A DNA stretch of 27,080 nucleotides. Source: a virus. The translations under genes were made by a program, and so were the position numbers. Under the pieces are notes generated by a model. It worked only from the letters and a program-made list of their open reading frames with translations, did not search any database and had not been told where the DNA came from. The stretch spans positions 1-27,080 of the IMG/VR virus record IMGVR_UViG_3300021197_000667, one strand, 5' to 3'. Shown one piece after another: positions 3,642 through 6,292 of the stretch. Each line of letters starts with the position of its first letter. The stretch's first letter is position 1.

Positions 3642-3838
3642 AAGGGAGGTTCCTCACCTTCATACGAAGGCATCCATCCCATCGATATACCAGTACGCAC
3701 AGCATGTTCATGTGGAGTTTCTTCTTTAGGCCATACAACATCAGCGTTGCTACCGTATATACTATATCTATCTTCTGTAGACAGTATACCCCATTTCAGC
3801 ATCCAACATTCCAGTTCAATAGGAACTGTATCAATCAT
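3638..3838 (-). CDS. Small protein of a local paralogous family (member C)
   Basis: A 66-residue protein that ends GWMPSYEGEEPPF, nearly the same tail as member B, but whose N-terminal part (MIDTVPIELECWMLKWG) differs. The ATG at 3838 is chosen because GGAG lies 6 bases upstream and the overlap with the preceding lysis-type gene is then only 8 bases; an upstream in-frame ATG at 3877 would overlap that gene by 47. Function unknown. Confidence 0.6.
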   Translation of the reverse strand: MIDTVPIELECWMLKWGILSTEDRYSIYGSNADVVWPKEETPHEHAVRTGISMGWMPSYEGEEPPF

Positions 3839-4313
3839 CCCAAACTCCATCCCATGTATAAAATAAATGATTACCAATAACCTTAGATAGATCCATTTGA
3901 TCTGCCCAATCAGGGTTTACCCAATTTGCATGATAGAAGACTGCCCCTAAACTAGGATCTTCAACATTGCCTATCATAACATCTCTGGCAATAACTTTGG
4001 CGCTATTCCACGCTTTAGCTTCTATTGGAGATGGATCTTTAATTAGATGGGTCCAACTAAACTGATATGGTTGGTAAACTACTTCGCAAATAGAAGAAGG
4101 CCACTCCTTATGATTTACACGATTAATCGTGACTTGAGCAACAGCTATCTGACCTTCTACACGTTCACCTCTAGATTCATGATAGACGTTCAAAGCAAGA
4201 CATTCATGCTCTTTAACATCTACAATGGGTGCGCTCATGATAGCTGCAGCAACAACACCTGTCAATACTGCCATGGACATTATTCCACTTATTATGTTTG
4301 TTTTTCTGCTCAT
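3831..4313 (-). CDS. SleB-like cell wall hydrolase (Hydrolase_2)
   Basis: A 160-residue protein with an N-terminal membrane segment or uncleaved signal (residues about 8-28, IISGIMSMAVLTGVVAAAIM), then a SleB/Hydrolase_2 domain: CLALNVYHESRGERVEGQIA, VTINRV, ICEVVYQPYQFSW and AVFYHA. The Glu in YHESRGE is the expected catalytic residue of this peptidoglycan-cleaving family. It probably acts in the periplasm in lysis or envelope remodelling. The in-frame ATG at 4334 lies upstream of the -10 box and cannot be used by the early promoter, so the ATG at 4313 is taken; no ribosome binding site precedes it, suggesting a near-leaderless mRNA. Confidence 0.8.
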   Translation of the reverse strand: MSRKTNIISGIMSMAVLTGVVAAAIMSAPIVDVKEHECLALNVYHESRGERVEGQIAVAQVTINRVNHKEWPSSICEVVYQPYQFSWTHLIKDPSPIEAKAWNSAKVIARDVMIGNVEDPSLGAVFYHANWVNPDWADQMDLSKVIGNHLFYTWDGVWDD

Positions 4314-4322
4314 TACGAATCT

Positions 4323-4351
4323 ACTATACTTCATATTTATCCTAATGTCAA
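4323..4351 (-). promoter_or_regulatory. Early sigma70-type promoter
   Basis: Minus-strand TTGACA (4351-4346), a 17-base spacer, then TATAGT (4328-4323). It faces the SleB-like gene and the small-gene cluster. The spacer TTAGGATAAATATGAAG closely resembles that of the promoter at 5744-5772. Confidence 0.88.
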
Positions 4352-4362
4352 GAGCCTTTTTT

Positions 4363-4370
4363 TATAAATA
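4363..4370 (+). promoter_or_regulatory. T4-type late promoter box
   Basis: TATAAATA on the plus strand, the T4 late consensus read by the gp55/gp33 system, sits 24 bases upstream of the gene at 4394 and 11 bases from the -35 of the divergent early promoter. Confidence 0.8.
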
Positions 4371-4393: not shown

Positions 4394-4654
4394 ATGGCTG
4401 AAGAAAAATTACCTAATGTAGTTAGAGATGAAGATACCCCTGAGGGTAAAATGGAACTGCAGTTTAGAGTTCTGGGAAATGAAATGATCGGCATTAAAAT
4501 GATCGTGGATGATATGAAAATGAAGTGGGTCTTTATTGGTTTGTTAGCAATCCTAGTAATGACTTGGGCTGCTGCAGAGTTTGGAAATGCAATCACTGGC
4601 GGTAACTCTGATGATGTTTATATGTTAGAAGAAGAGCCGTATAACGATGGCTGA
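4394..4654 (+). CDS. Late small membrane protein
   Basis: An 86-residue protein with an acidic cytosolic N-terminus, a helix (MELQFRVLGNEMIGIKMIVD), one membrane segment at about residues 49-66 (WVFIGLLAILVMTWAAAEFG), and an acidic tail. TAGGAG precedes the ATG and a late promoter box lies just upstream, so it is expressed with structural genes. From memory, similar small proteins occur in marine T4-like phages; no function can be assigned. Its stop overlaps a possible start of the next gene. Confidence 0.7.
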   Translation: MAEEKLPNVVRDEDTPEGKMELQFRVLGNEMIGIKMIVDDMKMKWVFIGLLAILVMTWAAAEFGNAITGGNSDDVYMLEEEPYNDG

Positions 4655-4676
4655 TAAAAACACATTTGGAGTAGAA

Positions 4677-5063
4677 ATGGCAACTAAAGAGTCTAAAAAA
4701 CAAGAAGCTAAAGTGATGCAAGCTGATAGTATCTATGCTCATCTAGATGCAGATGGGGATGGAGTTATCACTGATGAAGAAATGGCACGTGCCAAGGAAA
4801 TAGCAGAGTGGGAACACAAAAAGAAGATGCAAGAGAATGAAGATGCCAAGGAAGATCAGATTAGATCTATGGCATGGTTCGCTCTGTGGGGCATGCTTCT
4901 GTACCCTGTACTCATTATGATTACATCTGTGCTAGGTATTGAAAGTGCTGCAAAAATAGTCGGAGACATTGCCCCGACTTACTTTGTTGCTATTGCAGGT
5001 TTGGTAGCTGCGTTCTTTGGCGCACAGGCATACTCAAAAGGTAAAGCTACTAAAGGAGACTAA
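4677..5063 (+). CDS. Late membrane protein with an EF-hand
   Basis: A protein of 128 residues with a canonical EF-hand loop near the N-terminus, DADGDGVITDEE, in which all calcium-coordinating positions (D, D, D, the I backbone, E at 12) are present. A charged helix follows (about residues 35-65), then two membrane segments (AWFALWGMLLYPVLIMITSV and YFVAIAGLVAAFFGAQAYSK). The ATG at 4677 has a strong GGAG five bases upstream; an in-frame ATG at 4647 would add ten residues and overlap the previous stop. It is transcribed from the late promoter. Calcium binding is a strong prediction; a holin-like or virion membrane role is only inference. It meets the next gene tail to tail with a 4-base overlap. 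Confidence 0.75.
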   Translation: MATKESKKQEAKVMQADSIYAHLDADGDGVITDEEMARAKEIAEWEHKKKMQENEDAKEDQIRSMAWFALWGMLLYPVLIMITSVLGIESAAKIVGDIAPTYFVAIAGLVAAFFGAQAYSKGKATKGD

Positions 5064-5275
5064 GCACCTAAGATCCTACGGATGGCTACAGGGTCATCCG
5101 TAAACAGATTACCACCATCATTAATATGCTCTACGATTTGCTCAAAGAAGAACTGTGCATCAGTGTCTTCTTCTACAACCTTTGCCGCTGTACGAAAGAA
5201 GTTGCGTAACTTCATGTCATTGTTACCATCAGACATAGCTGCTGGCTTCCACTTACCTGAACGTTGATTACTCAT
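5060..5275 (-). CDS. Small conserved-type phage protein
   Basis: A 71-residue soluble protein. The N-terminus is basic (MSNQRSGKWKPAAMSDGNND), followed by a helical region (LRNFFRTAAKVVEEDTDAQF) and a short end domain (GGNLFTDDPVAIRRILGA). GGAG lies 8 bases before the ATG. The start overlaps the MazG-like stop by 8 bases. No function recognised. Confidence 0.6.
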   Translation of the reverse strand: MSNQRSGKWKPAAMSDGNNDMKLRNFFRTAAKVVEEDTDAQFFFEQIVEHINDGGNLFTDDPVAIRRILGA

Positions 5276-5528
5276 ATAGACTACTCCATGCCATTAGTTT
5301 GTTTTGTTTGCGCATCATAGCATCATCCGTGCTACTAGTCAATACTCCAAATGTATCATGCAACAACTGAATCATCAGACGAACATCACCCATCTCTTGG
5401 ATAAGATGCTCTGCTTTATCTGTGGTGTACCCAAACCTAATAAGTTTGGATAACACCTGAGTTAACTCTGCCATTTCTTCCATGGCAATCACTACAGTTT
5501 CCTGCTGTTGTTTACTTAGATGGTTCAA
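5268..5528 (-). CDS. MazG-like nucleotide pyrophosphohydrolase
   Basis: An 86-residue all-alpha protein with the MazG-type metal-binding pattern: EEMAELTQVLSKLIRFG in the first helix pair and HLIQEMGDVRLMIQLLH in the second (ExxE then ExxD). Such enzymes hydrolyse non-canonical or alarmone NTPs and may reset host nucleotide signalling. The start is TTG at 5528 in a TTGA overlap with the previous stop, with AAGGAG 8 bases upstream. A second MazG-like gene lies at 8381. Substrate not predictable. Confidence 0.7.
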   Translation of the reverse strand: MNHLSKQQQETVVIAMEEMAELTQVLSKLIRFGYTTDKAEHLIQEMGDVRLMIQLLHDTFGVLTSSTDDAMMRKQNKLMAWSSLYE

Positions 5529-5737
5529 TGTGTGTACTCCTTATCTACAGCACTTGCATCCCACACATAGGGGCAATACTTGTATATTGGACCAAAGATA
5601 ACTACGTCACTATCTCCAACTTCGGAGAAAACTCTATCATCATAGTCTCTGTGTATCATTACAGGTCCACCAAAGATCCTATGCGCTCTCGCATACTCAT
5701 CACCTCTGAAACCTACGTAGTGTACTGTTCTCATCAT
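5525..5737 (-). CDS. Small phage protein (VHYVGFRGDEY family)
   Basis: A 70-residue protein beginning MMRTVHYVGFRGDEYARAHR, followed by FGGPVMIHRDYDDRVFSEVG and a beta-strand, DSDVVIFG. The fold looks like a small alpha/beta domain. I have seen this type of sequence in marine T4-like phages as a conserved hypothetical. The in-frame ATG at 5755 is inside the early promoter, so the ATG at 5737 is chosen; it falls on the predicted transcription start and has no ribosome binding site. Confidence 0.65.
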   Translation of the reverse strand: MMRTVHYVGFRGDEYARAHRIFGGPVMIHRDYDDRVFSEVGDSDVVIFGPIYKYCPYVWDASAVDKEYTH

Positions 5738-5743
5738 AGAATC

Positions 5744-5772
5744 ACTATACGACATTTTTATCTTAATGTCAA
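5744..5772 (-). promoter_or_regulatory. Early sigma70-type promoter
   Basis: Minus-strand TTGACA (5772-5767), 17 bases, TATAGT (5749-5744). The spacer (TTAAGATAAAAATGTCG) matches the promoter at 4323-4351 at most positions. The expected transcription start falls on the A of the ATG at 5737. Confidence 0.88.
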
Positions 5773-5782
5773 GCCTCTTTTT

Positions 5783-5790
5783 TATAAATA
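5783..5790 (+). promoter_or_regulatory. T4-type late promoter box
   Basis: TATAAATA on the plus strand, 26 bases before the gene at 5816 and 10 bases from the divergent early -35 box, in the same arrangement as at 4363-4370. Confidence 0.8.
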
Positions 5791-5815: not shown

Positions 5816-6292
5816 ATGATAGATCCAGTAACGGCTATCGGTTTAGCCACAGGTGCATTTAATTCCATCAAGACAATGATTGCCACAGGCAAGGATATCC
5901 AAGACATGGCAGGTCAGCTAGGTCAATGGGGCAAGGCAATAAGTGATTTGGATTACGCAAGTCAAAAGGCTGATAAGCCTAAATGGTACAAAGCATTAGG
6001 CGGTGGAGTACAAGCCAATGCTGTCGAAACCTGGATGCACAAGAAAAAAGCAGATGAAATGCGTGATGAACTCAAGGGTTATATATCGGCTGTCTATGGA
6101 CCATCTGCATGGAAAGAAATCGTACACCTAGAAGGTGTCATGAGAAAAGAACAGAAAGAAGCTGTGTATGCCGCTCAAGAAATGAAAGAGAATATTATTG
6201 CTTGGATTGCCGGTATCTTATTGACACTTTTGGCTGTATCTGTAATGGGCGGTATTGTATATTGGTTAGGTCTCTCCCAAGGTAGATGGTAA
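5816..6292 (+). CDS. Late membrane-anchored phage protein
   Basis: A 158-residue protein: an N-terminal glycine/alanine helix (DPVTAIGLATGAFNSIKTMI), a middle region with WGKAISDLDYASQKADKPKW and a YGPSAWKEI block, a charged helix, and one C-terminal membrane segment at about residues 128-152 (IIAWIAGILLTLLAVSVMGG). GGGAG lies about 8 bases before the ATG. A late promoter drives it. Similar proteins are, from memory, common in marine T4-like phages without a known role; late expression suggests a virion or lysis function. It ends directly against the minus-strand gene at 6293. Confidence 0.7.
   Translation: MIDPVTAIGLATGAFNSIKTMIATGKDIQDMAGQLGQWGKAISDLDYASQKADKPKWYKALGGGVQANAVETWMHKKKADEMRDELKGYISAVYGPSAWKEIVHLEGVMRKEQKEAVYAAQEMKENIIAWIAGILLTLLAVSVMGGIVYWLGLSQGRW

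Follow-up and report, generated by a model that had tools for sequence, protein, structure and literature searches.

Two small probable late-gene islands in the early region of a marine T4-like phage, each bordered by a putative divergent early/late promoter pair

Nearly all the genes in a fragment of a marine T4-like phage are on the minus strand, and the plus strand holds only two blocks, p4394-p4647 and p5816. How would these be transcribed, and why do the sequences ahead of them look so alike? The fragment (hereafter the window, the whole 27,080-nt stretch that was analyzed) covers the early and replication region and has genes for a gp43-type DNA polymerase, UvsX, a DnaB-type helicase, a primase, thymidylate synthase, a Dam-type methylase, Hsp20 and a RegA-type repressor. 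The closest complete phage, as judged by the polymerase, is C48C1 (58% identity), in which the local order is similar (repressor, Hsp20, polymerase, primase, UvsX-type gene, helicase, endolysin); no isolated phage gave a near-identity DNA match to the query sequence. From the sequences, their geometry, conservation, strand layout and motif recurrence, we consider it likely that the two blocks are T4-type late islands lying in the early region, with a divergent early/late promoter pair at the border of each, the boundary thus being used twice.

Table 1. Features of the two junctions and their surroundings. Positions are those of the window, except in the last row, where they are given for each relative named.
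Feature	Position	Strand	Remarks
Lysin: cell wall hydrolase (Hydrolase_2 endolysin) gene	3831..4313	-	Start codon predicted at +4 of early transcript
Copy 1 early sigma70 promoter	4323..4351	-	-35 TTGACA 4351-4346, 17-nt spacer, -10 TATAGT 4328-4323; predicted start 4316
Copy 1 gap, 11 nt, T/A tract	4352..4362	.	On minus strand, A-rich stretch at -41 to -47
Copy 1 T4-type late box TATAAATA	4363..4370	+	Predicted start 4376
p4394: 86-aa protein, one apparent membrane stretch	4394..4654	+	Membrane stretch read from sequence
p4647: 138-aa EF-hand-like membrane protein	4647..5063	+	
m5060: small early-strand gene, convergent with first island	5060..5275	-	
NTP pyrophosphohydrolase-like early-strand gene	5268..5528	-	
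Small early-strand gene, first behind copy 2	5525..5737	-	ATG predicted at first transcribed base
Copy 2 early promoter	5744..5772	-	-35 TTGACA 5772-5767, 17-nt spacer, -10 TATAGT 5749-5744; predicted start 5737
Copy 2 late box TATAAATA	5783..5790	+	10-nt gap from early promoter; predicted start 5796
p5816: 158-aa protein, C-terminal membrane stretch (phrog_32327)	5816..6292	+	
Palindromic TATTTATAAATA sites	L220 5237-5248; L221 5531-5542; L222 5706-5717; L237 5297-5308		

The original prediction placed a minus-strand sigma70 promoter and a plus-strand T4 late box back to back at 4323-4370, with the same order and spacing again at 5744-5790. Sequence, shuffles and relatives bear out the first statement; the second also holds, with gaps of 11 and 10 nt and spacers identical at 13 of 17 positions. 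The two late boxes stand ahead of the only two plus-strand gene blocks in the window. Both early promoters have sigma70 -35 and -10 hexamers, a spacer of about 17 nt and an A-rich upstream tract, and among the sigma70 matches of the first 14 kb both rank in the top three, at 11/12. The A-rich gap of copy 1 sits where T4-like early promoters carry an UP-like element and might act as one. On the plus strand TATAAATA, or a one-off variant of it, falls at -13 to -6 of the predicted start; T4-like phages have late boxes at these positions and early promoters with A-rich tracts at -40 to -44 (PMC1524935). The sequence downstream of the box is A/T-rich in copy 1 (ATAAAAATATG) and less so in copy 2 (GGTTTGAAGG). 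In both, a start codon preceded by a ribosome site comes 18-20 nt past the predicted late start; for p4394, the first gene behind the copy 1 box, this site is AGGAG.

Could such a pattern arise by chance? An 11/12 promoter with a divergent TATAAATA no more than 12 nt away was observed twice in the window and not once in any of 400 dinucleotide shuffles. Across the whole viral collection the bare pattern occurs in 113 stretches against 83 with a reversed-box control; because this excess is modest, the counts were set aside as proof. We take both window sites to be real because they are conserved in relatives, not because of the pattern alone.

With the lysin gene as anchor, the junction is kept in relatives at 61-98% lysin identity, given a divergent plus-strand gene. 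Both junctions are kept in the same-species contigs L083, L127 and L174 and in a 36-kb one (L135, G005). In a close 60-kb relative, where the early strand encodes 17,997 aa and the other strand 1,138, the island is bordered by the same junction. The original prediction of a late-gene island set into an early region and bordered by a divergent pair thus draws support from sequence, strand layout and conservation. Among 12 aligned copy 1 loci the late box is the best-conserved element of the junction (1.92 bits per column, followed by the -35 at 1.24, the gap at 1.00, the -10 at 0.99 and the spacer at 0.72); two relatives have the variant CATAAATA. Eleven of the 12 loci have a copy 1 gap of 10-11 and L226, whose -35 is degenerate, one of 12; the copy 2 gap is 10-11 in the window, L238, L240 and L230. 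Junction geometry is not absolute, since the gap of L230 copy 1 is 2 by best match and those of L223 and L377 copy 2 are about 32. It is also of note that four relatives have, near their p4394-p4647 genes, a palindromic TATTTATAAATA that amounts to two late boxes overlapping on opposite strands (Table 1).

The other side of the junction has a conserved feature of its own. The lysin ATG lies 6-10 bases past the -10 in 11 of 12 loci, although the sequences differ, and from this spacing a leader of only 0-4 bases is predicted for the lysin mRNA at these 11 loci; some -10 hexamers in this set (L379, L228) are weak. A longer lysin ORF reaching 4334 is not a likely start because the -10 falls within it. 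The early transcript of window copy 2 is likewise predicted to begin on the ATG itself, whereas the leaders of the lineage's ordinary early promoters include a ribosome site. The conserved near-leaderless start predicted for the lysin gene is a new detail and may bear on lysis timing.

Is the whole junction, then, a selected composite? The A/T tract could double as the early promoter's UP element and the upstream edge of the late box, held at a nearly constant 10-11 bp, with the clamped late polymerase shutting the early promoter directly and the leaderless lysin mRNA perhaps being read only in certain ribosome states. We regard this elaboration as tentative and on balance unlikely.

The preferred reading, late islands bounded by a boundary used twice, has to account for the likeness of copies 1 and 2. 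One possibility is that an ancient duplication or repeated gene conversion keeps the two junctions of a genome alike. Within-genome similarity is indeed high in the window (34/45) and in L238 (30/45) against a null mean of 15, and the L223 junctions are also alike if aligned on the -35. However, anchored on the box, L223 scores only 18/45 and L230 only 13/45; window copy 1 matches copy 1 of L238 (35/45) as closely as it does its own copy 2; and the shared motif is common to other early promoters of the same genomes. We therefore hold this explanation to be quite improbable.

The original prediction went further and saw in the equal order and spacing and the shared spacer a regulatory cassette duplicated as a unit, bringing a late island into the early region. 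The sharing itself stands, but not as a sign of duplication: the stretch common to both spacers is CTTGACATNANGNTAAA, an extended early-promoter motif of the window's lineage. With up to two mismatches allowed, the 36-kb contig and the 60-kb relative each have five CTTGACATNANGATAAA sites, every one of them on the early strand; the opposite strand and the reversed controls of these two sequences gave no match. Downstream of the three extra sites in the former and most extra ones in the latter come a -10-like hexamer and then a leader of the ordinary kind that includes a ribosome site (for example GATTCTGTAATAAGGAG). The search for further copies that the prediction called for therefore finds the early motif elsewhere in the relatives' contigs, but in neither of these two is there a late box beside the extra sites. 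This recurrence makes the shared spacer a lineage-wide early-promoter motif. The sister lineage (L223, L377, L380, L381) has AGTTGCACTTA instead, on one strand only, at both its junctions and at other early promoters; early-promoter motifs thus appear to change together across the genome from lineage to lineage.

Copy 2, moreover, is present in L223, L377, L238, L240 and L230, with p5816 (54-79% identity) behind its own late box; its occurrence in several divergent lineages means that it is older than the window's lineage and not a recent copy. In L118 copy 2 is absent and a compact p4394-p4647-p5816 operon places p5816 within the operon of copy 1. Since the lysin tree joins L118 to the window (99/97), within a set in which most other members have m5060, the operon of this close relative is best read as a deletion of the early genes between the islands together with the second box. 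A duplicated cassette would be a repeat unit that spans both promoters and whose early half never occurs alone; here that half does recur alone, and with a different motif in the sister lineage and an old copy 2, recent duplication of a cassette was rejected and is very improbable. Copies 1 and 2 are most likely alike because both hold the early-promoter consensus of the lineage.

Does the box act as a late promoter? Of 23 TATAAATA sites in the 150 kb of C48C1 that were read, 10 stand 21-78 bases ahead of genes for the virion (sheath, tube, head-tail adaptor, baseplate and others), against one of four reversed boxes within 100 nt upstream of such genes. C48C1 is annotated with late sigma factor (gp55), late-promoter regulator (gp33) and clamp (gp45); none of the three is in the window, which is a 27-kb fragment. 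A sigma70-region profile found gp55 in HTVC008M and Melnitz only, and the HTVC008M protein as query found homologs in three more records. In HTVC008M and Melnitz the p4647 homologs are flanked by gp51 and a large late gene. C48C1 also has an unrelated minus-strand late island (103535-104644), with the same junction layout (104390-104724), in which a late box and TTTACA-17-TATAAT diverge across a gap of 9; the LFDFGF protein start of this island recurs behind similar junctions in contigs from the whole-collection pattern search. The box by itself is not diagnostic, since several TATAAATA sites in the 60-kb relative are intragenic on the early strand, and its distribution in the 60-kb and 36-kb relatives is uninformative because the genes annotated there are early or metabolic. 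It is barely credible that TATAAATA is merely part of the A/T-rich UP element of the early promoter, with the plus-strand genes read from elsewhere: its place at about -47 to -54 is near that of such an element, but the box is kept letter by letter (one position being T or C) while its flanks change, it is followed by the ribosome site and start codon at the spacing given above, it persists in L379 and L381, where another plus gene lies downstream, it is absent from other early promoters of the lineage, and no good plus-strand sigma70 promoter was found at the junctions.

For the late islands with divergent promoters we infer transcription starts, timing, exclusion and gp55 dependence as follows. 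Early in infection the host sigma70 polymerase would read leftward from 4316, into the lysin gene and the early genes that follow it, and from 5737, into three small early genes. Once gp55, gp33 and the gp45 clamp had been made and replication had begun, the late polymerase would become active and read rightward from 4376 (p4394-p4647) and 5796 (p5816), so that small membrane-protein genes embedded in the early strand would be expressed late. The predicted divergent starts are 60 and 59 bp apart; with this distance and the position of the box, both polymerases are unlikely to bind at once, and the sigma70- and gp55-polymerases probably exclude each other at the junction. The clamp of the T4 late complex extends the footprint upstream by about 13 bp and displaces the alpha C-terminal domains (PMC2988020). 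The competition and early-to-late switch of the original prediction are plausible from the promoter overlap. Islands and early genes converge with almost no gap (5060/5063 and 6292/6293), so each programme would also read antisense through the other unless terminated. Inside p4647 and antisense to it, about 80 bases beyond the end of the copy 2 early genes, is a terminator-like hairpin (4979-4958, minus) that looked like a candidate end of the copy 2 transcript.

Some further features of the window deserve mention. Terminator-like hairpins at 8376-8353 (minus) and about 1700 (minus) take in the -35 (TTGAC) of the promoter that follows, so that terminator and promoter overlap. Ahead of the Hsp20 gene (26080-26038, minus) an early promoter, TTGACA-17-TATATT, and a late box TATAAATA are in tandem and in the same direction. 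A permuted tmRNA gene of alphaproteobacterial type (1345-1730, minus; Rfam RF04321, RF01849; tag ANDNFAPSGYALAA) has its own early-type promoter, and its type suggests an alphaproteobacterial host. Between 3831 and 6292 the Hydrolase_2 lysin stands beside small membrane proteins; p5816 has relatives in HMO-2011-like roseophages and Limnohabitans phage DC31, and the DC31 relatives of the small proteins adjoin a peptidoglycan peptidase. This is probably a lysis neighbourhood.

T4-type phages would thus keep tiny late islands in early regions by means of a compact two-way promoter that holds its geometry as its sequence changes. Lineage-wise early motifs would aid annotation of marine T4-like phages; in pelagimyophages late-promoter prediction failed earlier (PMC7029224). 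How does the arrangement compare with known systems? The TATAAATA box with a ribosome site close downstream is like the gp55/gp33/gp45 late promoters of T4, as are the late sigma factor, regulator and clamp of C48C1. Putative late genes of opposite polarity inside the early strand are also T4-like; T4 late transcripts have both polarities, and early and middle ones a single polarity (PMC2988020). Unlike T4 late promoters, the putative late promoter box here is separated by only 10-11 bp from the -35 of an early promoter that points the other way. Early and late promoters are likewise packed together in RB49 and S-PM2, where the overlapping pairs are thought to replace middle promoters, but there both promoters serve one gene whereas the window pair points in opposite directions (PMC2984593). 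The sigma70 hexamers, 17-nt spacer and upstream A-tract resemble T4-like early promoters with their A-rich UP-like element; unlike these, the lineage-specific motif of the window extends into the spacer (PMC1524935). The arrangement is ordinary T4-style genome organization, with some conserved detail.
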